The notes below the pieces were generated by a model. It worked only from the letters and a program-made list of their open reading frames with translations. It did no database searches and was not told the DNA's origin. A stretch of DNA of 64,000 nucleotides, from assembly GCA_015200345.1 (NCBI GenBank), contig CP054187.1:3084470-3148469 (forward strand). Reading direction: 5' to 3'. Positions 51,747-63,631 of the stretch are shown in pieces. A program made the translations under genes and the position numbers. How positions within the stretch are numbered: position 1 is the stretch's first letter; every line of letters starts with the position of its first letter. The stretch is from Planctomycetia bacterium (GTDB taxonomy: Bacteria; Planctomycetota; Phycisphaerae; UBA1845; UTPLA1).

Positions 51747-52193
51747 TTATCCATACCACGATTCGACGGCCGACGCGACGCGATCGCATAAACTGGGATC
51801 GTCCAGCAGGAATTCCGCGCCGACATAGAATCCCTGTGCCCGAATCTCGGTATGGCGGACGATCGCCGGCACGCGCGCCGCGTGCGGATCGGCCCAGAAG
51901 AGCTTGACCGCCAGCAGCGAGCCGACCGGAAAGGCCGTCTCGGCGAGGAAGCCGATGCCCGTTGCGGAAACGTTGTCGAGCGTGACGCGATGGTCGTCGA
52001 CGCTTTGCGCGTCGAGGTTCGCGACAAAGATCGGCACCGAGCGGTGGAAACGCACGGCTTGGCGTCGCTCGCGGTAGAGCACCGGCTTGCCCGGCCGCGT
52101 GTTCTCCAGGAAGCGGCGAATCTCACGCTCAAAGACGTATGTCGTGTTGATCGGGTGGGCCGTGGACGAAGGCACGGCAACGGGTTGGTTCAT
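51747..52193 (-). CDS. PilZ domain protein
   Basis: A 148-residue PilZ protein. The ATG at 52193 follows AGGAG at 8 nt. The c-di-GMP-binding arginines are in YRERRQAVRFHRSVPIF (about residues 40-56; RRQAVR fits RxxxR) and the D/N-x-S-x2-G motif is in LDNVSATGIGF (about 71-81). A probable c-di-GMP receptor. It is the last resident gene before tRNA-Arg and the integrated element. Confidence 0.82.
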   Translation of the reverse strand: MNQPVAVPSSTAHPINTTYVFEREIRRFLENTRPGKPVLYRERRQAVRFHRSVPIFVANLDAQSVDDHRVTLDNVSATGIGFLAETAFPVGSLLAVKLFWADPHAARVPAIVRHTEIRAQGFYVGAEFLLDDPSLCDRVASAVESWYG

Positions 52194-52429
52194 CGGGATG
52201 GCTCCTGTCGTGGCATGGTTGCCTTGCGCGGGGCGTCGACCGCGCGGCAAAGTCCGTATTGGCTGGTTGATTTTGCGTTCGCGGACAAAGCGTACAATTC
52301 AGGAACGAATCAGGGCGTGTCTGAATTAACGCAGGGCCGTGGCGAAAACCGCATGGGACTGGGTTTCCGGACGGTCGCTGGCTGGAATCGACCTGCACCG
52401 GATAAAATGTGCGGCGGACAGACAATCGT

Positions 52430-52503
52430 GCGCCCGTAGCTCAGCAGGATAGAGCAGCGGTTTCCTAAACCGCAGGTCGGAGGTTCGAATCCTCTCGGGC
52501 GCG
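52430..52503 (+). tRNA. tRNA-Arg (anticodon CCT), integration site of the element
   Basis: A 74-nt cloverleaf: acceptor stem GCGCCCG/CGGGCGC, D-arm GCTCAGCAGGATAGAGC, anticodon stem GCGGT/ACCGC around loop TTCCTAA (anticodon CCT, reads AGG), T-arm GGAGGTTCGAATCCTC and discriminator G. No CCA is encoded. An integrase gene begins 119 nt after its 3' end, the standard sign of site-specific integration into a tRNA gene; the tRNA is intact, so the element restores its 3' end. Confidence 0.95.
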
Positions 52504-52621
52504 TTTAAACTAAACCTCGCCGACCCCAAGAGTTGTGGGGACCTGCCGACGGTCGGCAGCGCGGCTCAAGACGCAAATTCGCGCGGTGTTACACCGCGCA
52601 AGCGTTAAGGAGCCACGCATC

Positions 52622-53980
52622 ATGCCGAAATCTCGCTTATCAACAGCTAAGACCCCCTCGTACCGTCACCGCCCCGGCTACGACCAAGCCCTTGTCACGT
52701 TGACGGATGCCGTGACGCGCCGGCGTCGTGATTACTGGCTCGGCGAGGCCGGCACGCGCGAAAGCCGCGAACTGTACCATCGCGTCATCGCGGCATGGGA
52801 GGCAAACGACCGCCGCCTGCCGCGGCACCCGCGCGATGAAGGCACCGAGCGCGCCCAGGATGGCCCCGTCATCATCGAGGTTATCCGCGACTTCCTGAAA
52901 TGGGCCAGAGTATCGGTCGACACTGGCGAGCTGCGTTCCTATGTGATCGTGCTGGCCCTGCTTCGCCGATATGCAGGCCGCATGCCCGCCAGCCAATTCG
53001 GGCCAAAGATGATGCGGCTCATTCGAGATGAGATGATTCGCGGCGACGCGATCAGCGATCCGCCGCGACGTTCCTGGTCGCGCAAGTACATCAACGCCCA
53101 GGTCCAACGCCTCCGCCGCGTCTTCAAGTGGGCGGCCGCGCATGAGCTGGCACCCGTGACGGTCTATCAGTCATTGAGCACGCTCGAGCCCCTGCGGCGC
53201 GGGCGGTCCGCCGCGCGAGAGACCGACAAGGTCGGCCCTGTCTCGCAACAGTTGCTCGACGCCACGACGAAGTTTCTTAGCCCGACGCTACAAGTACTGG
53301 TCGAACTGCAATTGCGAACCGGCGCCCGAGCCGGCGAGTTGCTCATGCTCCGCCCGATGGACCTTGTTGAAGATGCCAAATTATGCATCTGGGTATTCCG
53401 TCCCTGCTCCCACAAGACTTCGTACCGGGGCATGAATCGCGCCATTTACATCGGACCAAAGGCGCAAGGCCTGCTCGCGCCGCTGCTTGAGAGTTGCGCC
53501 CAAGATGAGTACGTCTTTGATCCGCGCAAGTCCGAGGCGGCCAGACTCTACCAGCGGCACGCAGCGCGGAAGACGCCCTTGTCTTGTGGAAACCGCCCCG
53601 GTTCAAACCGCAAAGACGCTCCATCTCGAACACCGGGCGGCCGGTATTCGACGGCGGCATACTGCCGGGCGGTTCACCGTGCCTGCGAAGCTGCCTTCCC
53701 ACCGCCTCCGCCGCTTGGTCAACAGCCGGGCGAAACACGGGCCGACTGGCGGCAACGAATCAAACGCGAGCAGATGCAAGACGAGCTGCGACAGTGGCGA
53801 CGCGCGCACAGTTGGCACCCGCACCAGCTCCGCCACAACGCCGCCACGAACCTGCGCCGCGAGTTCGGCCTGGAGGCCGCCCAGCTCGCCCTGGGCCACG
53901 CCAGCGCCCAGATCACCGACGCGGTGTATGCGGAACGCGACCACGCCAAGGTCGTGGATATCATGCGGAAGATCGGATAG
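52622..53980 (+). CDS. Tyrosine recombinase / integrase
   Basis: A 452-residue phage-type integrase. The catalytic set is visible: R236 in RTGARAGELL, H401 and R404 in HPHQLRHNAATN, H426 in LGHASAQ, and the nucleophile Y436 in AVYAERD; K265 (SHKTSY) is a candidate lysine. The N-terminal part includes a core-binding helical domain (about 80-185). Compared with typical integrases there is a long insert between residues about 300 and 390, rich in Arg and Pro. It starts at an ATG after AAGGAG and reads away from tRNA-Arg. It would carry out integration and, with a directionality factor, excision. Confidence 0.92.
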   Translation: MPKSRLSTAKTPSYRHRPGYDQALVTLTDAVTRRRRDYWLGEAGTRESRELYHRVIAAWEANDRRLPRHPRDEGTERAQDGPVIIEVIRDFLKWARVSVDTGELRSYVIVLALLRRYAGRMPASQFGPKMMRLIRDEMIRGDAISDPPRRSWSRKYINAQVQRLRRVFKWAAAHELAPVTVYQSLSTLEPLRRGRSAARETDKVGPVSQQLLDATTKFLSPTLQVLVELQLRTGARAGELLMLRPMDLVEDAKLCIWVFRPCSHKTSYRGMNRAIYIGPKAQGLLAPLLESCAQDEYVFDPRKSEAARLYQRHAARKTPLSCGNRPGSNRKDAPSRTPGGRYSTAAYCRAVHRACEAAFPPPPPLGQQPGETRADWRQRIKREQMQDELRQWRRAHSWHPHQLRHNAATNLRREFGLEAAQLALGHASAQITDAVYAERDHAKVVDIMRKIG

Positions 53981-54014: not shown

Positions 54015-54590
54015 GTGGTGCTCAAGGAACTCGTCGACGCCTCGCTGGGGTGCTTTCACTTTGGAGCGTACCATGCATCATTCCTGCTTGCCCTTTGCGC
54101 GACCGACGCCACGGCTAAGAAGCGCTTCCCGAATGAGTGCTCGGTGGGTCGCCGATTTAAGGATTTCGTTCAAGCGCACATGCCGCAGCTCTTTGGAGCG
54201 CAGAACTTCTGGGTTGCCGTCGACATGCCGGAGGATCGATCCGCATTCCCACTCGACGCAAACGGAGTGCACAATCTTCCACAGGTTGGTGATGATTTCA
54301 ACCGCGATAAAGGGAAGCCTCGTTTGGTGCTCATGCAAGGCGTGCTCTACCACGCATTTCGTTGCGCCCTTAGCCATGAAGCAGATCTGCCCGATGTCGA
54401 GCTGCTTCCACCAACGCCAAATGGGGCTGTGGCCGTGAAGGTAGACACCAAGGTTCGAATCTCTGCTGACATCATAGGTCGTCTCCTCTTCGCGGTGGTA
54501 CATGCTCAGGAGAATCAGGGTCTCTTTGGGACGCAGGAAGGCGCAATTCAGGCAGCCGCTACTCCGAAAGGTGCCGCGAGTCTGCCATAG
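54015..54590 (+). CDS. Hypothetical cargo protein
   Basis: A 191-residue protein from tandem GTG codons at 54015/54018, after CGGAG. Its codons are less G+C-rich than those of the flanking recombination genes, and it is followed by a strong terminator, so it forms its own small unit between the integrase and the rest of the element. The sequence (LVDASLGCFHFGAYHASFLLALCATDATAKKRF at the start is split here by a helix boundary) is soluble and mixed alpha/beta; no family is recognised. Position and composition suggest a moron-type accessory gene, possibly defence or host fitness related, without direct evidence. Confidence 0.6.
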   Translation: MVLKELVDASLGCFHFGAYHASFLLALCATDATAKKRFPNECSVGRRFKDFVQAHMPQLFGAQNFWVAVDMPEDRSAFPLDANGVHNLPQVGDDFNRDKGKPRLVLMQGVLYHAFRCALSHEADLPDVELLPPTPNGAVAVKVDTKVRISADIIGRLLFAVVHAQENQGLFGTQEGAIQAAATPKGAASLP

Positions 54591-54625: not shown

Positions 54626-54657
54626 CCGAGTTACCGAAGCCGGTAACTCGGTTTTTT
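54626..54657 (+). terminator. Rho-independent terminator with GAGTTACC stem
   Basis: CCGAGTTACC pairs perfectly with GGTAACTCGG across GAAGCC, followed by six T. The stem contains the octamer GAGTTACC that recurs in the operator-like array about 90 bp downstream. Confidence 0.88.
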
Positions 54658-54731
54658 CTTTGAATTTCTTTCGATGCAGCAACTTCCATCAAGCCCGGCG
54701 TTTGTGCGCTGTCGGCCCACGCCCGCCGCCT

Positions 54732-54755
54732 GGTAACTCGAGTTACCGAGTTACC
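54732..54755. promoter_or_regulatory. GAGTTACC operator-like array before the DUF1580-like gene
   Basis: GGTAACTC, GAGTTACC and GAGTTACC follow one another without spacing: an inverted pair forming a perfect 16-bp palindrome and a third direct copy. It lies 65 bp before the DUF1580-like gene, where a regulator of the element's main operon would be expected. Confidence 0.65.
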
Positions 54756-54819
54756 GCCCGGATTCGTGTTGTAAATCACCTGCATGGAACGAAGCACCGG
54801 CAATGGCCGGGAGGTTCAC

Positions 54820-55206
54820 ATGCAGGAACACGCAGCCGCGACAAGTGAATACATCACGCTGACCGAGGCGGCCAAGATTGCTCCGGGGCGGCCGTCAACC
54901 AACTGCGTCTGGCGGTGGTGCCGGCGGGGTGTTCTCGCCCGCGGCGGCGAGCGCGTCCGACTCCAGCACGCCCGCGTCGGCGGCATGATCTACACGACGG
55001 CCGCCTGGCTGGGGGAGTTCGGCCGAAAGCTCGCCGAGGCCGACGAGAAGTATTTCGATCTTTGTGAAGCCGCCACACAGGCCGCGCGGGCTTCGGATGC
55101 CTCGGTCGCCCGTCGCCGGCGGCGCGCTGCCCTACCACATGCTCAGGATCAACGACGGCGCGACTTGGATGCGCTCGACCGCGAGCTGGCTGCGGAGGGG
55201 CTGTGA
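54820..55206 (+). CDS. DUF1580-like DNA-binding protein
   Basis: A 128-residue protein. GGGAGG lies 6 nt before the ATG at 54820. The core LTEAAKIAPGRPSTNCVWRW followed by RRGVLARGGERVRLQ and RVGGMIYTTAAWLGEFG matches the DUF1580 pattern common in planctomycete mobile elements and reads as a MerR/excisionase-like winged helix-turn-helix. The C-terminal third is basic (RRRRRAALPHAQDQRRR). It is the first gene of the element's long operon, directly behind the GAGTTACC array, and could be a repressor or recombination directionality factor. Confidence 0.7.
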   Translation: MQEHAAATSEYITLTEAAKIAPGRPSTNCVWRWCRRGVLARGGERVRLQHARVGGMIYTTAAWLGEFGRKLAEADEKYFDLCEAATQAARASDASVARRRRRAALPHAQDQRRRDLDALDRELAAEGL

Positions 55207-55493
55207 TGCGCTACTCGGACGACACCGAACTACGAGACATCCGTCTGCAAATTATGCACACGGGCATCATGAGCGATTACCAGTTGCACGTCGGCGAATG
55301 GGACGAGCGATTTCGGATCGAGACGACGCGGGCGCTGACGGATGGCGTGGCCGTGCGGTCGAGGGGCGATCAGCAGGACTTGTTCAATAGGGGAACTCGC
55401 AGCCGCAACGGGCGCCACAGGTCCCGCGCGGCCGGCAAACGTGACGGCGGTCCCGTGAAGGCTCAACCCAGCGAGCGGAAGGTGCAACGATGA
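55206..55493 (+). CDS. Hypothetical small protein
   Basis: A 95-residue protein whose ATG overlaps the preceding stop (TGATG) and whose own stop overlaps the next start, so it is part of a translationally coupled chain. The first 60 residues (RYSDDTELRDIRLQIMHTGI, VGEWDERFRIETTRALTDG) look folded; the rest is basic and low-complexity. I recognise no family. Confidence 0.6.
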   Translation: MRYSDDTELRDIRLQIMHTGIMSDYQLHVGEWDERFRIETTRALTDGVAVRSRGDQQDLFNRGTRSRNGRHRSRAAGKRDGGPVKAQPSERKVQR

Positions 55494-56305
55494 ATGACCA
55501 CGACTTCGACCTGCGATTCCTGATCCGCGAGCCGGCGGAGGTGTATCACGCCCGCAGCAAAGACCACGTGACGGCCCATGCGCTCAGCGACTTTCGGCGC
55601 TGCCCGGTGCTGTATCGCAGGAAGGAACTGGGCCTGGTGCCGCAGCGCGACAGCCAAGCGTTTCTCGTCGGCCGGGCGGCGCACACGCTCATTCTCGAAG
55701 GGCGGCAGCGTTACGAGCGCGAGTACGCGGTCGGCGGGCCGATCAACCCTCGCACCGGCCAGCCGTTCGGCCCGCAGACTAAGGCCTTCGCCGAGTGGGC
55801 CGAGCGGCAGAGCCGGCCGGTGCTTGGCGACGCGCAGGCGGCGATGGTCGAGCAGATGGCGTCGGTGGTGGGCGAGCACCTGTTCGCCCGCGAACTGTTC
55901 CGCTGCGGTGTGGCCGAGGGCGTGGTGCGCTGCGAGTACGCCGGACAACGCTGCCAGGCGCGAATCGACTGGATCAATCCCATCGAAGGCCGCGGCCTCG
56001 TCGATCTCAAGACCGCCGACGAACTGGACTCGTTCGAGCCGGCCATGCGGGCCTTCGGCTACCTGCACCAGGTCGCGTTCTATCGCGCGGTCGTCGCCAT
56101 CGCCTCGGGCCGCGTCCTACCCGTCCACATTGTCGCCGTCGAGAAGCGCGAACCGTTTCGCTGCGGCGTGTGGCAGATCGCGCCGGCGGTGCTCGACCAG
56201 GCGCAGCGCGACAACGAGGAGGCGATGGCCGATCTGCGGCGCTGCCGCGAGACCGGCAACTGGTTCACGAGATTCGAATCGCTGCGGCTGGTCGATCGGC
56301 TGTGA
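55490..56305 (+). CDS. PD-(D/E)XK exonuclease (RecE/DUF3799-like)
   Basis: A 271-residue nuclease. The opening ALSDFRRCPVLYRRKELG is the helix found in phage exonucleases of the RecE C-terminal/DUF3799 type. The catalytic core is D160 in ARIDW, D172-x-K174 in LVDLKTAD, and Q194-x3-Y198 in YLHQVAFYR. Such enzymes chew 5' strands to give 3' overhangs for annealing. It overlaps the preceding gene as ATGA and precedes the Sak4-like and DUF669 genes, making a phage recombination module. Confidence 0.85.
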   Translation: MNDHDFDLRFLIREPAEVYHARSKDHVTAHALSDFRRCPVLYRRKELGLVPQRDSQAFLVGRAAHTLILEGRQRYEREYAVGGPINPRTGQPFGPQTKAFAEWAERQSRPVLGDAQAAMVEQMASVVGEHLFARELFRCGVAEGVVRCEYAGQRCQARIDWINPIEGRGLVDLKTADELDSFEPAMRAFGYLHQVAFYRAVVAIASGRVLPVHIVAVEKREPFRCGVWQIAPAVLDQAQRDNEEAMADLRRCRETGNWFTRFESLRLVDRL

Positions 56306-56358
56306 GGGCCGGGTCTGCTGCAGGCACAGGACAACCCACGCATCGTCAGGAGGTCACC

Positions 56359-57231
56359 ATGAAGTTGCTCGAACAGATTCAGCGCGGCGTGCAGCCGGCC
56401 CCGCGGCGGGTGCTGCTGTATGGAACTCACGGGGTTGGCAAATCGACATTCGGCTCAATGGCCGAGCGGCCGATCTTCATTCAGACCGAAGATGGCCTGG
56501 GGATGATCGACTGCGAGCGCTTCCCGCTGGCGACGCGCTACGGCGAGGTCATCGCCGCCCTGGCAGCCCTCTACACCGAGCCGCACGAGTACCGCAGCCT
56601 GGTGCTCGACAGCCTCGACTGGCTGGAGCGGCTGATCTGGCGGGAGGTCTGCGAGAAGCGCGGCGTCGAGAACATCGAAGACATCGGCTATGCCAAGGGC
56701 TACACCTTCGCCCTGACCCAGTGGCGCGAAGTGCTCGGCGGCCTCGATGCCCTGCGCAACGAGCGCGGCATGCAGATCATCCTGATCGCCCACGCCCAGA
56801 TCGAGAAGTTCGCCAACCCCGAGACCGACACCTACGACCGTTACAGCCCGCGGCTTCAGAAGCAGGCCTCGGCCTTGATCCAGGAATGGTGCGACGAGAT
56901 TCTCTTCGCCACCTACAAGGTTCACACCAAGACGATCAACGAGGGCTTCGACCGCAAGCGCGTCCAGGGCATCGGTACCGGCGAGCGGATTCTTCGCACC
57001 ACCGAGCGGCCGGCCCACGTGGCCAAGAACCGGCTGAACCTGCCCGAGGAACTCCCGCTCGACTATCGCATCTATGCCGCGACCGTGCGCGGCGAGAACC
57101 CGATGGCGACCCAGCCGCCGGCCGATTCGCCGCCGCAGGATGAGGCACCTGAACACCAGGGCAGCGCACCGGGCGCCAAGCCGCGCCGCGGGCGCCGGCC
57201 TTCCGAGACTGCGGAGCCGGCCGCGGGTTGA
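56359..57231 (+). CDS. Phage-type RecA-like ATPase (Sak4-like)
   Basis: A 290-residue ATPase with Walker A GTHGVGKST at residues 22-30, IFIQTEDGL next to it, a Walker B-like RSLVLDSLDW near residue 77, and a QIILIAHAQIEKF strand near 132. This is the pattern of AAA/RecA-like phage proteins including Sak4 single-strand annealing proteins. The last 40 residues are a Pro/Ala/Arg-rich tail. AGGAGG lies 5 nt before the ATG at 56359. Between an exonuclease and a DUF669 protein, it probably promotes strand annealing or exchange during element replication. Confidence 0.82.
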   Translation: MKLLEQIQRGVQPAPRRVLLYGTHGVGKSTFGSMAERPIFIQTEDGLGMIDCERFPLATRYGEVIAALAALYTEPHEYRSLVLDSLDWLERLIWREVCEKRGVENIEDIGYAKGYTFALTQWREVLGGLDALRNERGMQIILIAHAQIEKFANPETDTYDRYSPRLQKQASALIQEWCDEILFATYKVHTKTINEGFDRKRVQGIGTGERILRTTERPAHVAKNRLNLPEELPLDYRIYAATVRGENPMATQPPADSPPQDEAPEHQGSAPGAKPRRGRRPSETAEPAAG

Positions 57232-57284
57232 ACCGGGCCTCCGCTTGATGACTGACCCATTCACAATCAACAGGAGTAACGCAC

Positions 57285-57755
57285 ATGGCAAACCTTGGAA
57301 ACTTCAACGCAACCGACGTGGACCCGAACTTCTCCTTCGAGCCGGTGCCGCAGGGCAAGTACCTGGCGGTCATTACCGACAGCGAGATGAAGGAGACCAA
57401 GAACCGCGATGGCCGCTACCTCGAGCTGACCTTTCAGATCATCGAGGGTGATCACCGCGAGCGGATGCTCTGGTCGCGGCTGAATCTGGAAAACGCCAAC
57501 GCGACGGCGGTCAAGATCGCCCGGGCCGAGCTGTCGGCCATCTGCCGGTCCGTCGGCGTGCTGGCGCCCAAGGACTCGGTCGAGCTGCACAACGTCCCGC
57601 TGGTCATCACCGTCGGCCACAAGAAACGCGACGACAACGGCGAGCTGACCAACGTGATCAAGGGCTACGAGCGCAAGGGCGCGGCGAGCGCTGCCGCCCC
57701 GCGCCCGGCCGCTGCCGCCACCGCCGGCAACGGCAAGGCCCCGTGGCAGCGGTGA
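57285..57755 (+). CDS. DUF669 single-strand-binding-like protein
   Basis: A 156-residue DUF669 protein: NATDVDPNFSFEPVPQGKYL at the start, IIEGDHRERMLWSRLNLEN in the middle, and a VPLVITVGHKKRDDNGE strand pair, the layout of an OB-like single-stranded-DNA-binding companion in phage recombination modules. The C-terminal 25 residues are Ala/Pro-rich and end in a tail with GKAPWQR, which could act like the acidic tail of SSB proteins. GGAG lies in front of the ATG. It follows the Sak4-like gene and is followed by the RusA gene 5 nt later. Confidence 0.85.
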   Translation: MANLGNFNATDVDPNFSFEPVPQGKYLAVITDSEMKETKNRDGRYLELTFQIIEGDHRERMLWSRLNLENANATAVKIARAELSAICRSVGVLAPKDSVELHNVPLVITVGHKKRDDNGELTNVIKGYERKGAASAAAPRPAAAATAGNGKAPWQR

Positions 57756-57760
57756 GGCCG

Positions 57761-58126
57761 ATGGCTGCGACGCCGGACGTGAGGAGGGTCGAGCTGCCCT
57801 GGCCGCCATCGGTCAATCGCCTGTGGCGCAGCGTGGGTGGACGGACGCTGCTTAGCCGCGAGGGCCGGCGCTATCGCAGGGAGGTGATGGCCCGCCTCGC
57901 GGCGGCACGCGCGCGGCCGATGGTGGGCCGGTTGAGCGTGTCTCTTTGGCTGCATCCGCCCGACCGGCGCCGTCGCGATATCGACAATCCACAGAAAGCC
58001 CTCCTTGACGCGATGCAGGACGCGGGGCTGTTCGAGGATGACAGCCAGATCGACGAGCGGCACACCCGGCGGATGGCGGTCGTGCCTGGCGGCTGCGTCA
58101 TCGTGGAGATCGCGGAGCAAGTGTAG
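57761..58126 (+). CDS. rusA: RusA-family Holliday junction resolvase
   Basis: A 121-residue RusA endonuclease. The catalytic pattern D73-x-D75-N followed by K79 and D83 is in RRDIDNPQKALLDAM, with D93/D94 in FEDDSQI; LPWPPSVNRLWR is the typical N-terminal motif. It cuts four-way junctions symmetrically, finishing recombination or resolving branched replication products. The ATG at 57761 lies 5 nt after the DUF669 stop, and the TAG stop directly precedes the helicase ATG, so it is in the same transcript. Confidence 0.9.
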   Translation: MAATPDVRRVELPWPPSVNRLWRSVGGRTLLSREGRRYRREVMARLAAARARPMVGRLSVSLWLHPPDRRRRDIDNPQKALLDAMQDAGLFEDDSQIDERHTRRMAVVPGGCVIVEIAEQV

Positions 58127-59803
58127 ATGGAGCTGCGACCCTACCAGCGCGAGGCCGTCGAGGCGGTGTACGAGCACCTGCGCACGCGGGATGACAACCC
58201 GTGCGTGGTGATCCCAACAGCCGGCGGAAAAACGCCCTGTCTTTCCACGATCTGCCGCGACGCGGTGCAGCGCTGGGCCGGCCGCGTGCTGATCCTCGCG
58301 CACGTCCGCGAACTGCTCGAGCAGGCGGCCGAGAAGCTGCATCTGGTCGCGCCGGACCTGCCGGTGGGCATCTACTCGGCGGGCTTGAAGCGCCGCGACC
58401 TGGGCTACGCCATCACCATCGCCGGCATCCAGTCCATCTATGAGAAGGCGTGCGACGTCGCGGCTGTGGACCTGGTGATCGTCGACGAATGTCATCTCAT
58501 CCCCGAAGACGGCGAGGGCATGTACCGCACGTTCCTGGCGGACATGAAGAAGATCAACCCCGCAGTCCGCGTCATCGGCATGACGGCCACGCCGTTCCGC
58601 ATGAAGTCGGGCACGATCTGCGCGCCGGACAACATCCTCAACGCGGTGTGCTTCGAGATCGGCGTCCGCGAGCTGATCGTGCAGGGCTACCTGTGCCCGC
58701 TGCGGACCAAGGCTGGCAGGCTCAAGCCCGACACCGGCAAGCTGCACGTCCGCGGCGGCGAATACATCGCCGGCGAGGTTGAGGACCTCATGGACGAGGA
58801 CAACCTCGTCGCGTCCGCCTGCGCCGAGATCGTCGAGCACACCCAGGCCCGAAAGAGCGTGCTGATCTTCGCGTCGGGCGTCCGGCACGGCCAGCACGTC
58901 TGCCGCGTGATGGCCGAGCGGCACCAGGTCGAGTGCGGCTTCATCTGCGGTGAGACGCTGCCGTTCGAGCGCGACAGTCTGCTGAAGCGGTTCCGCGAGG
59001 GCGCGCTGAAATACCTCTGCAACGTCAACGTCCTGACCACGGGGTTCGATGCGCCGAACATCGACTGCGTGGCGATGGTGCGCCCGACGCTCTCGCCGGG
59101 CCTGTATTACCAGATGGTCGGACGCGGCTTCCGGCTGCATCCGGGCAAGACCGACTGCCTCGTGCTGGACTTCGGCGGCAACGTCCTGCGGCACGGGCCG
59201 GTCGACCAGCTCCGCGTCTGCGCTGCCGGCTCGAACGGCGATGGTGATCCGCCGGCCAAGGAGTGCCCGAAGTGCCACGCCGTCATCGCCACGGGCTACG
59301 CGACCTGTCCCGAGTGCGGCCACATCTTCCCACCGCCGGAGCGCCGCCACCACGAGCCGACGGCCAGCAGCGAAGGGATTCTGTCCGACCAGGTGATGCG
59401 CGCCGAGTACGACGTCACCGACGTGTATTACACCCTGCACGTTAAGCGCGATGCGCCGCCCGATGCGCCGCGCACGATGCGGGTCGACTACCGCGTCGGG
59501 TTCAACGAGTACGTCAGCGAGTGGGTCTGCTTCGAGCACTCCGGCTTCGCATTGGAAAAGGCTCGGCGCTGGTGGCGCGCCCGCTCCAGCGAGCCGGTGC
59601 CGCAATCGAGCGACGAAGCCGTCGATCTGGCCAACGCCGGTGCGCTGGCGCTGACGCGGTCGATCACCGTCGAGCGCAAGGCCGGCGAGCGGTTCGACCG
59701 TGTCGTCAAGTACCGTCTGGGCGACAAGCCCCCACGGCTGGATTCCGAGGAAGGTCTGCCGCAGTTCGCGCCGGCTATCGATGATGACTCGATTCCGTTT
59801 TGA
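58127..59803 (+). CDS. SF2 DEAD/DEAH-type helicase with C-terminal zinc ribbon
   Basis: A 558-residue helicase. Motifs: PTAGGKT (residues 30-36, Walker A), LILAHVREL (Ia), DECH (120-123, Walker B), TATP (153-156, motif III), TGFDAPN (motif V) and QMVGRGFRLHPG (motif VI). A zinc ribbon CPKCHAVIATGYATCPECG lies near residues 378-398, and a C-terminal domain of about 150 residues follows. This type, related to UvrB/ERCC-like and phage replication helicases, would unwind DNA at the element's origin. It is directly adjacent to the RusA and primase genes. Confidence 0.88.
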   Translation: MELRPYQREAVEAVYEHLRTRDDNPCVVIPTAGGKTPCLSTICRDAVQRWAGRVLILAHVRELLEQAAEKLHLVAPDLPVGIYSAGLKRRDLGYAITIAGIQSIYEKACDVAAVDLVIVDECHLIPEDGEGMYRTFLADMKKINPAVRVIGMTATPFRMKSGTICAPDNILNAVCFEIGVRELIVQGYLCPLRTKAGRLKPDTGKLHVRGGEYIAGEVEDLMDEDNLVASACAEIVEHTQARKSVLIFASGVRHGQHVCRVMAERHQVECGFICGETLPFERDSLLKRFREGALKYLCNVNVLTTGFDAPNIDCVAMVRPTLSPGLYYQMVGRGFRLHPGKTDCLVLDFGGNVLRHGPVDQLRVCAAGSNGDGDPPAKECPKCHAVIATGYATCPECGHIFPPPERRHHEPTASSEGILSDQVMRAEYDVTDVYYTLHVKRDAPPDAPRTMRVDYRVGFNEYVSEWVCFEHSGFALEKARRWWRARSSEPVPQSSDEAVDLANAGALALTRSITVERKAGERFDRVVKYRLGDKPPRLDSEEGLPQFAPAIDDDSIPF

Positions 59804-59808
59804 GGAGC

Positions 59809-61665
59809 ATGCAGGCCGTGGAATCCGACAACGCGATGCTCCAGGCTGCACGGTGGTACGCCGAACTCGGCTACGCGGTCTTTCCCTGCGCGCCCGGGCG
59901 CAAAACGCCGCTGACCGAACATGGCCTGCTCGATGCCACGACCGACGCCGAGCAGATCGCGGCCTGGTGGATGCAGCATCCCCGCTCGAACATCGCCATC
60001 CGAACCGACGGCCTGGTCATCATCGACGTTGACGGCGAGGGCAATACCTGGCTCACCGACGAGCCCGCGAAGCTTGCTGAACTCGACGTCGCGCCGCTGT
60101 CACTCACGCCGCGCGGCGGGCGGCACTACATCTTCCGTCAGCCCGAGGGACGTGCGTGGCGCAATTCGACCAGCCGGCTCGCACCGCGCGTCGACACGCG
60201 AGCCAACGGCGGCTACGTGCTGATAGCTCCATCGGTCGTCGAAGGCCGGGCCTACCGCTGGGCTAACGAGCGCGGGCTGGCCGTCGCGCCGCACCGCCTG
60301 CCGGAGCCGCCCGCGTGGTTGATCGACATGCTCGACGCGCTGGCGGGATCGAACAGCGCTGTCGCGCAGGCCACGCCGGGCAACGCGATTCCAAAGGGTC
60401 AGCGCAACGGCACGATGGCTCGGTTGGGCGGCGCCATGCGCCGCGTGGGCATGTCGCAGGCCGAGATACTCGCTGCGCTCCAGCAGGTCAACGCTGACCG
60501 CTGCGCGCCGCCGCTGGCCCTGCCCGAAGTCGAGCGCATCGCGTCGAGCATCGCCCGCTATGAACCCGACGCCGTCTCGGTGGCGCTGACCGAGGACCAT
60601 TGGGCGCAGGATCACGGCCCACCGGCCCAACCCGCGCCGTTGAGCGTGCGCGAGTTGATGGCCACGCATCGAATGCTGCGGGCGCCGGTCATCCACGGCC
60701 TGCTGCGACGCGGCGAGACGATGAACGTGATCGCGTCGCCGAAGACCGGCAAATCATGGCTCGTGCTGGCCCTGGCGATGGCCGTTGCCACCGGCCGCCA
60801 TTGGCTCGACGCGTTCGAGACCGTGCCCGGGCGCGTGCTGATCATCGACAACGAACTGCACCCCGAGACACTGGCCCACCGCATCCCGCAGGTCGCCGAG
60901 TGCCTCCATATCGGCATGAACGAGATCGCCGAGACGATCAGCGTGCAGAGCCTGCGCGGCCAGCTCCGCGACATCTTCTCGCTGGGGAAGTACTTCGAGT
61001 CCGTCGAGCCGGGCACCTACGCGCTCGTCGTGCTCGATGCCTTCTATCGCTTCATGCCGCGCGACATGGACGAGAACGACAACGGCACGATGGCCGGCAT
61101 CTACAACCACGTCGATGCCCTGGCCGACCGGGTGGGCTGCTCGTTCGTGCTGATCCATCACGCGACCAAGGGCAATCAGTCGGCCAAGTCGGTCACCGAC
61201 GTTGGCGCGGGCGCTGGCAGCCAGAGCCGCGCGACCGACACGCATCTGGTCCTTCGGCCGCACGAGCAGCCCGGCGCGGTGGTGCTCGAAGCGGCGGTTC
61301 GGTCGTGGCCGCCGGTCGAACCGATGGCCCTGCGCTGGTTGTTCCCGCTGTGGAAGTCAGCGCCGGACCTCGACCCGGCGATGCTGCGCAGCGAGAAGGC
61401 CAAGCGAGCCAAACCGGCCGAGGAAGTGATGCCCGAGCCGCCGGCATGGAGCGTCGAGCGATTCGTCGAGGAATTCCTGTCGGAGCAGCCTGCAACCAGG
61501 TCGGAGATTCGCGAGCGGGCGACCGGCAAGCCCGGGCTTTCCTGGCGGCGGGTCAGCGACTTCCTCGACATCGCCGAGCATCGCGGGCTGATCCAGCGCA
61601 TCAAGCTCCCCGGCCAAGGCGGGCCAGTGGGGTTTGCGAAGCGTGACAAGGAGGTGTCGCTATGA
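59809..61665 (+). CDS. Bifunctional primase-polymerase with RepA-like ATPase domain
   Basis: A 618-residue protein. Residues about 5-185 form an AEP-type primase-polymerase domain (AARWYAELGYAVFPCAPGRKTPL, IIDVDGEGNTW with the catalytic Asp pair, LTPRGGRHYIFRQP). A helical primase C-terminal part follows, then an AAA/RepA-like ATPase (about 285-500) with Walker A SPKTGKSW, LIIDNE and VLIHHATKG. A winged-helix tail ends the protein. Such primase-helicase fusions start replication of mobile elements and phages. The ATG at 59809 is probable; a GTG at 59818 is an alternative. It belongs to the same operon as the helicase. Confidence 0.85.
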   Translation: MQAVESDNAMLQAARWYAELGYAVFPCAPGRKTPLTEHGLLDATTDAEQIAAWWMQHPRSNIAIRTDGLVIIDVDGEGNTWLTDEPAKLAELDVAPLSLTPRGGRHYIFRQPEGRAWRNSTSRLAPRVDTRANGGYVLIAPSVVEGRAYRWANERGLAVAPHRLPEPPAWLIDMLDALAGSNSAVAQATPGNAIPKGQRNGTMARLGGAMRRVGMSQAEILAALQQVNADRCAPPLALPEVERIASSIARYEPDAVSVALTEDHWAQDHGPPAQPAPLSVRELMATHRMLRAPVIHGLLRRGETMNVIASPKTGKSWLVLALAMAVATGRHWLDAFETVPGRVLIIDNELHPETLAHRIPQVAECLHIGMNEIAETISVQSLRGQLRDIFSLGKYFESVEPGTYALVVLDAFYRFMPRDMDENDNGTMAGIYNHVDALADRVGCSFVLIHHATKGNQSAKSVTDVGAGAGSQSRATDTHLVLRPHEQPGAVVLEAAVRSWPPVEPMALRWLFPLWKSAPDLDPAMLRSEKAKRAKPAEEVMPEPPAWSVERFVEEFLSEQPATRSEIRERATGKPGLSWRRVSDFLDIAEHRGLIQRIKLPGQGGPVGFAKRDKEVSL

Positions 61666-62213
61666 GGCAGAACCCGAAGCGCGAGCGAAGTCGAAGCGCT
61701 CAAAGTTCGCGCGCGCTTCGAAAAATGTTAGCGGTAAACCCGAAGCGCGCGCACCCCCCCATACCCCCCCTGCGGGTGCGCCGCAACTTCGCGGCGACCC
61801 GCGAACCCGAAGCGCGCGCGCTTCAGGTTTGCGCACGAGGTTTGGGTCCTACCTGCCAGATTGGCAGTTCTTGGGCCGCGTGGTCAAGTCCGAACCAGGA
61901 CACAGTTTGTTGCGCTTGTCCGACTCGGCGAAGCGGCCGGTCAGGCCGTTGGGCGACGTCGCGCCGCAACGCATGGGGCCGGTGGGCATCGGCGTCGGCC
62001 ACGTCGCGCCGGGCGGCCACGGGGCGGCCCCCGTTGGCCCAGGGGCGACGCGGCGCCGGCGGTTGGACCGAGTGTCGGCAATCTGGCTCCATCGCGCCAC
62101 AACGCGACGGGTCGCCTGGAACGGCCAATCGCAAGGCGGCAAACGCCATGCAACGAAAGCAACGCGGTGCACGACCTGCAAGGGCTGCAATGCGATCCAA
62201 GACATTCGACTAA
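61662..62213 (+). CDS. Doubtful frame behind an ideal ribosome site
   Basis: An AAGGAGGTG site lies 7 nt before an ATG that overlaps the primase stop, so translation could well start here. The 183-residue product is Arg/Ala/Ser-rich with no recognisable fold, and the underlying DNA is a set of repeats. Two other frames are open too. A very short coupled peptide or an eroded gene is as likely as a functional protein. Confidence 0.25.
   Translation: MRQNPKRERSRSAQSSRALRKMLAVNPKRAHPPIPPLRVRRNFAATREPEARALQVCARGLGPTCQIGSSWAAWSSPNQDTVCCACPTRRSGRSGRWATSRRNAWGRWASASATSRRAATGRPPLAQGRRGAGGWTECRQSGSIAPQRDGSPGTANRKAANAMQRKQRGARPARAAMRSKTFD
61671..61820. repeat. Iteron-like direct repeats behind the primase gene
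   Basis: AACCCGAAGCGCG occurs at 61671, 61737 and 61804, with spacings of 66 and 67 bp. A nine-pair inverted repeat TCGAAGCGC/GCGCTTCGA at 61691-61721 and a palindrome CTGCCA/TGGCAG at about 61853-61868 lie within or near. Further short repeats (CAACGCGGTG, ATGCGAT and ATGCAACGA, each twice) follow up to 62256. The place next to helicase and primase genes suggests a replication origin. Confidence 0.55.
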
Positions 62214-62269
62214 CACAACGCGGTGAATGACATGCGATGGATGCAACGACTCGACAGGGAGGTTCAGGC

Positions 62270-63631
62270 ATGAAGATCGAACAGCGGCCGCTGGGCCGGA
62301 TCAAACCGTATGAGAAGAATCCGCGGATCAACGATGCGGCGGTCGATGCTGTCGCCGAGTCGATTCAGCGGTTCGGGTTCCGCCAGCCGATCGTGGTGGA
62401 CGGCGAGGGCGTCATTGTCTGCGGGCACACGCGGTGGCGCGCTGCGCAGAAGCTCGGCCTGGACAAGGTGCCGGTCCATGTCGCCCGCGACATGACGCCC
62501 GAGCAGATTCGGGCCTACCGCATCGCCGACAACAAGACCGCCGAACTGGCCGAGTGGAACCTCGAACTGCTGAACATCGAGCTGGGCGAACTCAAAGATG
62601 CCGGAATCGACTGGTCGCTGCTGGGCTTCGACGCCGACGAGCTGGCCAAGCTGCTGGGCAGCGAAATCAAGTCGGGCCTGACTGATCCCGACGACGTGCC
62701 CGAGCCGCCGGACAACGCCATCACCCAGCCCGGCGATCTGTGGGTGCTCGGCGAGCATCGCTTGCTCTGTGGCGACAGTGCGTCGACGGCCGACGTCGAT
62801 CGGTTGCTCGACGGCGCGGCGATTCACTTGGTCAACACCGACCCGCCGTACAACGTGAAGGTCGAGCCGCGTTCGAACAACGCCATCGCCGCCGGCATGT
62901 CTTCGTTCCCTTCGACCGATGCTGCCCGACGCGACAAGAAGCTCACCCACCATCAAGGGTTCGATGTCGCCCGACAGGGGCCGAAGAAGGCGACGACGAA
63001 GAAGTTGCGGGCCAAGGACCGGCCGCTGGCCAATGACTTCGTCAGCGACGATGAGTTCGATAGATTGCTAAATGCGTGGTTCGGCAACATCACCCGCGTG
63101 CTCGCGCCCGGGCGGGGCTTCTACATCTGGGGCGGCTACGCGAACTGCGCCAACTACCCACCGGTGCTCAAGGCGTGCGAACTGTACTTCTCGCAGGCGA
63201 TCATCTGGGTCAAGGAGCATCCGGTGCTCACGCGCAAGGACTTCATGGGGAACCACGAGTGGTGCTTTTACGGCTGGCGCGAGGGCGCTGCGCACGTGTA
63301 CCTCGGCCCGAACAACGTGCCGGATGTCTGGAGCATCAAGAAGGTCAACCCGCAGTCGATGATCCACCTGACCGAGAAGCCGGTCGAGCTGGCCGTCCGG
63401 GCGAATCAGTATTCGTCGCGTCCCGGCGAGAACGTACTCGACCTGTTCGGCGGCAGTGGCTCGACTCTGATCGCCGCCGAGCAGACCGGGCGTCGGGCAT
63501 TCCTGATGGAACTCGACCCGCTGTATTGCGATGTGATCGTGCAGCGGTGGGAGAAGTTCACGGGGCGCCATGCCAGCCGGCAGGCAGGGAAGGCAAAGCG
63601 GCGTTCACTGGACCCGGCGGCAACGGCCTGA
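62270..63631 (+). CDS. ParB-domain DNA methyltransferase (N6-adenine/N4-cytosine, beta class)
   Basis: A 453-residue protein. Residues about 1-130 are a ParB/Srx-like N-terminal domain (RIKPYEKNPRIND, VVDGEGVIVCGHTRWRAAQK at 42-61). The methyltransferase follows, with motif IV DPPY at 191-194 before motif I DLFGGSGST at 391-399, the order of beta-class enzymes, and EKPVEL as motif X region. GGGAGG lies 8 nt before the ATG. No restriction enzyme is next to it, so it is probably an orphan modification enzyme protecting the element or regulating it. Its stop abuts that of the convergent Fic gene. Confidence 0.92.
   Translation: MKIEQRPLGRIKPYEKNPRINDAAVDAVAESIQRFGFRQPIVVDGEGVIVCGHTRWRAAQKLGLDKVPVHVARDMTPEQIRAYRIADNKTAELAEWNLELLNIELGELKDAGIDWSLLGFDADELAKLLGSEIKSGLTDPDDVPEPPDNAITQPGDLWVLGEHRLLCGDSASTADVDRLLDGAAIHLVNTDPPYNVKVEPRSNNAIAAGMSSFPSTDAARRDKKLTHHQGFDVARQGPKKATTKKLRAKDRPLANDFVSDDEFDRLLNAWFGNITRVLAPGRGFYIWGGYANCANYPPVLKACELYFSQAIIWVKEHPVLTRKDFMGNHEWCFYGWREGAAHVYLGPNNVPDVWSIKKVNPQSMIHLTEKPVELAVRANQYSSRPGENVLDLFGGSGSTLIAAEQTGRRAFLMELDPLYCDVIVQRWEKFTGRHASRQAGKAKRRSLDPAATA

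Follow-up and report, generated by a model that had tools for sequence, protein, structure and literature searches.

The locus raises the question why one octamer, GAGTTACC, should form both arms of a predicted terminator stem and, further downstream, a triple array ahead of an operon, and which protein would read it. Exact copies in the window (the whole stretch of DNA that was analysed, 64,000 nucleotides) were located at 54628–54635 (+), 54642–54649 (−), 54732–54739 (−), 54740–54747 (+) and 54748–54755 (+). The count of five given in the preliminary description was thereby confirmed: five of five copies stood at their places within 54628–54755, and none was found elsewhere in the 64-kb window. 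Dinucleotide shuffles of the window (100): mean 0.53 copies, maximum 4, five reached in 0 of 100; host genome (3.88 Mb): 30 copies of the octamer vs 87 of the reversed control word. Because the word is that rare genome-wide, a chance cluster of five octamers in ca. 123 bp at the genome background rate has P ≈ 3e-18 (Poisson). A motif of a host-wide regulator was considered and rejected, the word being rare in the genome and the array unique there.

The element that carries these copies is, as read from its sequence, a tailed-phage-like prophage of ca. 66 kb at a tRNA-Arg gene. The tRNA-Arg(CCT) was placed by ARAGORN at 52429–52504 (+); its 3' part, from 52462, opens the left-bounding direct repeat of 157 bp (52462–52618), which has 87.9% identity with a copy about 66 kb downstream (window coordinate ca. 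118708–118863). The tyrosine integrase gene (52535–53980, +; PF00589, E 2.3e-15; phrog_1) is followed by an uncharacterised ORF (54018–54590, +) in a cargo slot between integrase and control region; the length of this slot varies among relatives, and the part 54021/54024–54590 gave no match in Pfam, PHROG, NCBIfam or PADLOC. The control region lies between these two genes and the early operon. The first gene of the latter (54820–55206, +; PF07618) encodes a DUF1580-like protein, predicted to be a winged helix, which is the proposed regulator; the operon continues at 55203–63631 (+) with a small ORF, RecE-like exonuclease, DUF669 SSB-like protein, RusA, RadD-like helicase, primase and a ParB-N/methylase. 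Further prophage genes encode terminase, portal, head protease and head decoration proteins.

Three side observations were made on the element. The right-end repeat (L003 14708–14863; L113 178–333) comprises the 3' part of tRNA-Arg and a stretch matching the leader of the window integrase, and looks as if a decayed related element had once been its tandem neighbour; the same strand of L113 showed no ORF for a related integrase. Type I restriction-modification genes (S fragment, M, S, R) lie within the prophage (L002 15346–18650, L003 1791–5018; window ca. 99346–109018). Amid them, the start of the ORF 102647–103996 resembles a serine/threonine protein kinase (by eye).

The segment 54626–54657 (+) has, by sequence pattern, the GC-rich perfect stem, short loop and T-run of an intrinsic terminator: a perfect 11-bp stem with 7 GC pairs and a 4-nt loop (54626–54651), then TTTTTT (54652–54657). 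The inverted octamers 54628–54635 and 54642–54649 are the arms of this stem, as had been described, and the predicted fold of the hairpin (−16.4 kcal/mol, z −5.1) agrees with the pattern. The same segment is the putative distal operator pair, with counterparts in the related elements G431, G599 and G457.

The proximal triple array (54732–54755, +) is conserved in relatives and consists of an inverted and two direct units, GGTAACTC GAGTTACC GAGTTACC, at a spacing of 8 bp; units 1 and 2 together make the perfect 16-bp palindrome GGTAACTCGAGTTACC. Its place before a DUF1580-like first gene of the operon held as described; the start of that gene was refined from 54784 to ATG 54820 (after GGGAGG), the most likely start because relatives begin at the aligned residue. 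A putative −10 element, GTAAAT (54771–54776, +), stands 15 bp 3' of the array and was read by eye from 21 loci; window-like relatives have an A-rich nTAAAA-like hexamer at the same offset (by eye). With this A-rich hexamer taken as the −10, unit 3 of the array would occupy the −35 position. The promoter scan of the control region, distal site included, gave no match to a consensus sigma-70 promoter.

Related elements were searched with the array pattern (up to 2 mismatches in 20 defined bases): class genomes, 14 matches in 13 of 397 (9 of the 14 exact; reversed control, 3 matches); phylum sample, 3 of 392 genomes, all three in the class of the window; order sample, no additional loci; IMG/VR viral contigs, 2 exact matches, 1 match for a variant pattern and no match for the GTTAGC array. 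The conserved core of the lined-up array loci was GGTAAC-N4-GTTACC-N2-GTTACC; the real unit is therefore nearer GTTACC than the octamer. Every one of the 14 arrays precedes DUF1580-like sequence: 12 an intact ORF, one (G540) a truncated copy with the intact copy 585 bp from the array, and one (G746a) a broken remnant. Most array loci (nearly all of those with enough sequence) have, upstream and in the same orientation, an integrase ORF followed by a variable cargo slot. By sequence, the closest named relatives of the host genome were Phycisphaerales/Phycisphaerae MAGs; G536 and G502 match contigs of these and fall in the same taxonomic order. Since two different replication modules were found downstream of it, the control cassette is the part that stays constant. 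Conservation in related elements, on which the preliminary description had made its reading depend, was found: array, distal site and DUF1580-like gene recur together there. That reading as a whole is partly upheld, conservation being its firm part and the binder plausible.

Two elements (L005 3240–5345 and L049 8062–9047) have, next after the array, a DUF1580-like copy that is truncated or broken, and further downstream an intact one; this order of copies suggests that insertion, or an exchange of modules, has happened repeatedly at the gene. Tandem CGATTCGCGAA-like repeats were seen at L005 4642–4680, directly 3' of the gene that precedes the intact copy.

Twenty-one loci were lined up, a set chosen because the loci bear the array and including two near-identical pairs (G689/G737 and G368/IMGVR_UViG_2747843214); 18 of them had a distal unit ca. 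90 or 104 bp 5' of the array: exactly at −90 in 10 of the 21; forward unit at −102 to −106 in 8 of the 21; at 119 bp in G463; no exact distal unit in G653 and G701. In the window, G431 and G599, the forward unit (−104, −104 and −103, respectively) and the inverted unit (−90, −90 and −89) form together with a T-run a predicted terminator, and the terminator of G457 is of similar type. The unit of G526 contributes to one arm of a terminator of different build, that of G487 lies in the upper part of a terminator hairpin, and in the −90 group (e.g. G368) a GC-rich hairpin of other sequence is found just 5' of the array. Distal inverted pairs are accompanied by a T-run in 4 elements and lack one in 4 others (G710, G337 and the viral loci L100 and L102); the word, which resembles a protein site, is therefore the constant component, and only some elements have a terminator built on it. 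The earlier suggestion that the terminator may have been made out of an operator gains support from the four pairs that lack a T-run and from the stem of G599, which shifts together with its array.

In six loci (G536, G502, G463, G688, G653 and G599), GTTAGC replaces GTTACC at every unit found. GTTACC/GGTAAC was absent from the 400 bp 5' of the gene in G536, G463, G688, G653 and G599, and from the array region in each of the six loci; the second gene copy of G502 was likewise preceded by 400 bp free of it. G502 carries its array and a distal GAGTTAGC before a broken first gene copy, with the intact copy 1.7 kb further on; its standing as an exception to the switch was dismissed since the array belongs to the broken first copy. 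In G536, GAGTTAGC is identical at the distal site and in the array and has lost complementarity to the inverted unit ACTTACTC; identity kept with complementarity lost favours a site read by protein over one acting through RNA pairing. The terminator stem of G599 is made of the new word (GAGTTAGC), GGAGTTAGC / GCTAACTCC with T8, and has changed together with the array. On the integrase tree the switch to GTTAGC took 2 changes, on the DUF1580 tree 3. The GTTAGC loci did not form one clade on either tree; grouping them as one gave borderline p-AU values of 0.0345 (integrase) and 0.0467 (DUF1580), with 5 of the 6 loci in the trees. With both words, GTTACC and GTTAGC, occurring naturally, recognition can be tested directly by exchange of protein and site.

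On a slight balance of probability, the GTTACC units constitute a two-part operator of the early-operon promoter, bound by one sequence-specific protein, most likely the DUF1580-like product as an autoregulator. The marks of a phage multi-unit operator can be read from the sequence: words repeated ahead of an early operon, conserved, and changing together in relatives. The operator of this family of Phycisphaerae prophages would comprise the triple array, placed at the −35 of the promoter that serves the early replication operon, and the distal site, about 90–105 bp upstream. In the window, the transcript of the distal inverted pair would also form the terminator hairpin that parts the integrase/cargo transcript from the early operon, and the distal site would insulate the operon by termination. 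The DUF1580-like protein, encoded first in the operon, would act at the array as a cooperative autoregulator or repressor, with the distal site as partner of the array and possible bridging of the two by a DNA loop. Distances of 90 or 104 bp are within the range of known repression loops; neither clearly puts the two sites on one face of the helix, which counts against the proposed reading. Conservation, position, the joint change of the units and the anatomy of the terminator were seen in the sequences; we infer the promoter at the array, the sign of control and DNA looping.

The candidate binder was characterised by profile and model. PF07618 (cut-off 24.4 bits): window protein, 21.7; homologues at L046, L052, L092 and L056, 26.9–27.9, above the cut-off; L005, 23.2, below it. 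The window protein is the only DUF1580 match in the host genome, and it is matched by a single such array. The AF2 model has a winged helix followed by long C-terminal helices (mean pLDDT 81.8; 91–94 in residues 11–70). Nearest solved folds (VIA), all with Z below 8: Pukovnik Xis, Z 5.8; BldC-DNA, 5.7 (50–53 residues); RdfS, 5.3; a phage-packaging DNA-binding domain and HiNmlR (MerR) were further neighbours at Z 5.3–5.8. Foldseek with the model gave nothing at E ≤ 0.001; HTH_17 matched the window protein weakly (E 0.0097, below the cut-off); the profile search of solved structures gave a best E of 0.49, and no BldC chain was matched by sequence. The protein was not found by tblastn in 50,697 phage records; in viral contigs, the alignment-based DUF1580 scan gave 13 loci and the single-protein scan 0. 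The literature search for DUF1580 returned no text match. From its model, the protein is predicted to be an Xis/BldC/MerR-like winged helix, and we infer it to be the most likely binder.

An unbiased check was carried out on the 280 bp 5' of DUF1580-like genes in 41 regions, the motif not being supplied; L072 and L080 among them are possibly misplaced (poor translation at the assumed frame), and L063 represents the second of the two G502 gene copies. The top 7-mer was of the GTTAC/GTTAG/CTTAC kind in 25 of the 41; 16 regions had no such top word, which counts against the proposed reading. The repeat count exceeded that of shuffles at p < 0.02 in 13 of the 41, G698 among them, and the rest showed little. 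In G698 (L077), ACTCGTC occurs four times at a spacing of about 10–12 bp, about 150–115 bp 5' of the gene match, and may represent a third specificity. A homologue from outside the class (L014, 36% identity) has AGTTACA four times at −105 to −71, downstream of an integrase; the other 18 of the 19 more distant homologues had no array-like word, which again counts against that reading.

The same two-part operator might instead have as its binder the integrase, a host factor or some unrecognised repressor of the element; the DUF1580-like gene would then be merely the first one controlled. This is regarded as unlikely. Array and DUF1580-like gene are linked, and therefore their co-occurrence cannot name the binder; an integrase ORF, too, precedes almost all arrays whose loci offer enough sequence, and integrase columns also track the operator class. 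Columns separating the word classes numbered 7 in the integrase (null 2–9) and 1 in DUF1580 (alternative groupings 0–3); protein–DNA covariation was rejected as a means of naming the binder, as reassigned leaf classes give as many columns. Binding of the units by the integrase as att arm sites is disfavoured: GTTACC/GGTAAC was absent from 51900–53000 and 118100–119400, and in the relatives examined no unit was found in up to 500 bp 5' of int, bar the single unit inside the int ORF of L089. A recombination role for the GTTACC word is therefore unlikely, and an att-arm or excisionase site was rejected for it; sites at the attachment sites, the mark of a recombination directionality factor, were not found for this word. 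Against a host factor speaks the lack of a second array in the host genome, and against another regulator of the element the ORFs of its scanned part, in which no CI-like repressor or other regulator domain was detected.

An antitermination switch, in which a protein at the distal site loads on RNA polymerase and lets integrase-side transcription pass the terminator, is quite improbable. Lambda Q loads on RNA polymerase at its promoter, and the distal unit stands upstream of or inside the predicted terminator wherever one was seen; the proximal array, however, lies downstream of the terminator. AlpA of P. aeruginosa, a predicted winged-helix protein, is described as a DNA-binding antiterminator (PMC7969949), but its site lies between −35 and −10, whereas no promoter was recognised at the distal site here. 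Still less credence is given to the array as a prophage replication origin of iterons ahead of the replication operon: the tandem units do stand beside a T/A-rich stretch and replication genes, but they are only three and short, an A-rich −10-like hexamer keeps a fixed offset from them, and the same cassette precedes two different replication modules. Equally remote is an attenuator at the RNA level, with units pairing in the transcript to set the terminator against alternative hairpins. The units are perfectly complementary in the window, and the predicted fold of the region has a z of −4.6; where relatives carry but one distal unit, however, they keep no unit hairpin there, and G536 and G502 keep identity and lose complementarity to the inverted unit. 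An RNA pairing switch was disfavoured on account of the relatives that lack the hairpin.

The proposed two-part operator was compared with known systems. Lambda-like operator regions have several operator units at an early promoter and a distant second operator group; the likeness lies in the multiple units at a putative early promoter with a second group upstream, the difference in that no CI-like repressor is found in the scanned part and that the words are conserved across genera. BldC is described as a MerR-like winged helix-turn-helix protein forming cooperative head-to-tail multimers on 9-bp direct repeats (PMC5859096); the DUF1580-like protein is likewise a small predicted winged helix-turn-helix protein with tandem direct units in a putative promoter. 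Unlike BldC, its unit is 8 bp, the first unit is inverted, the model has long C-terminal helices, the recognition word is different, and there is no sequence match. RdfS is described (PMC11963761) as the product of the gene that opens a transfer operon; it binds both attP and the promoter of its own gene, with no consensus motif. RdfS and phage Xis are fold neighbours of the winged helix-turn-helix kind, and the position of the gene is that of rdfS in its operon; unlike RdfS, the word here is strict and no units lie near att. For the stoperators of cluster A mycobacteriophages, operator words at promoters are described as also stopping transcription, the bound repressor being proposed to halt polymerase at sites dispersed over the genome (PMC9283540). 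Operator words are tied to both promoter and transcription stop here as well; in contrast, one distal site is itself a predicted intrinsic terminator hairpin, and all five octamers of the element are confined to 130 bp, not dispersed over many sites. AlpA shares the predicted winged helix and a terminator ahead of the first gene, and its element lies within the promoter upstream of that terminator (PMC7969949); the distal site here has no recognised promoter, and the two are likened by description.

Phage multi-unit operators are already known; what would set this one apart is that the operator is also a terminator and that the DUF1580 family is unstudied. It is tentatively suggested that one word has two readers, a DNA-binding protein that takes it as operator and RNA polymerase that meets it as terminator hairpin. 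A protein bound to the distal pair, by itself or in a loop with the array, would then set the entry of integrase-side transcription into the early operon. Among the papers listed by the literature search on operator-terminators none dealt with such a system, and the listed matches to the octamer letters were incidental by title. A stem that changes together with the operator is unusual in that one sequence would be under constraint at the DNA and the RNA level at once. If the suggestion is true, the word can change with both functions kept, as in G599, and its reader would belong to the unstudied DUF1580 family. For this family the array offers a concrete regulatory target, and for planctomycete prophages a candidate control switch.
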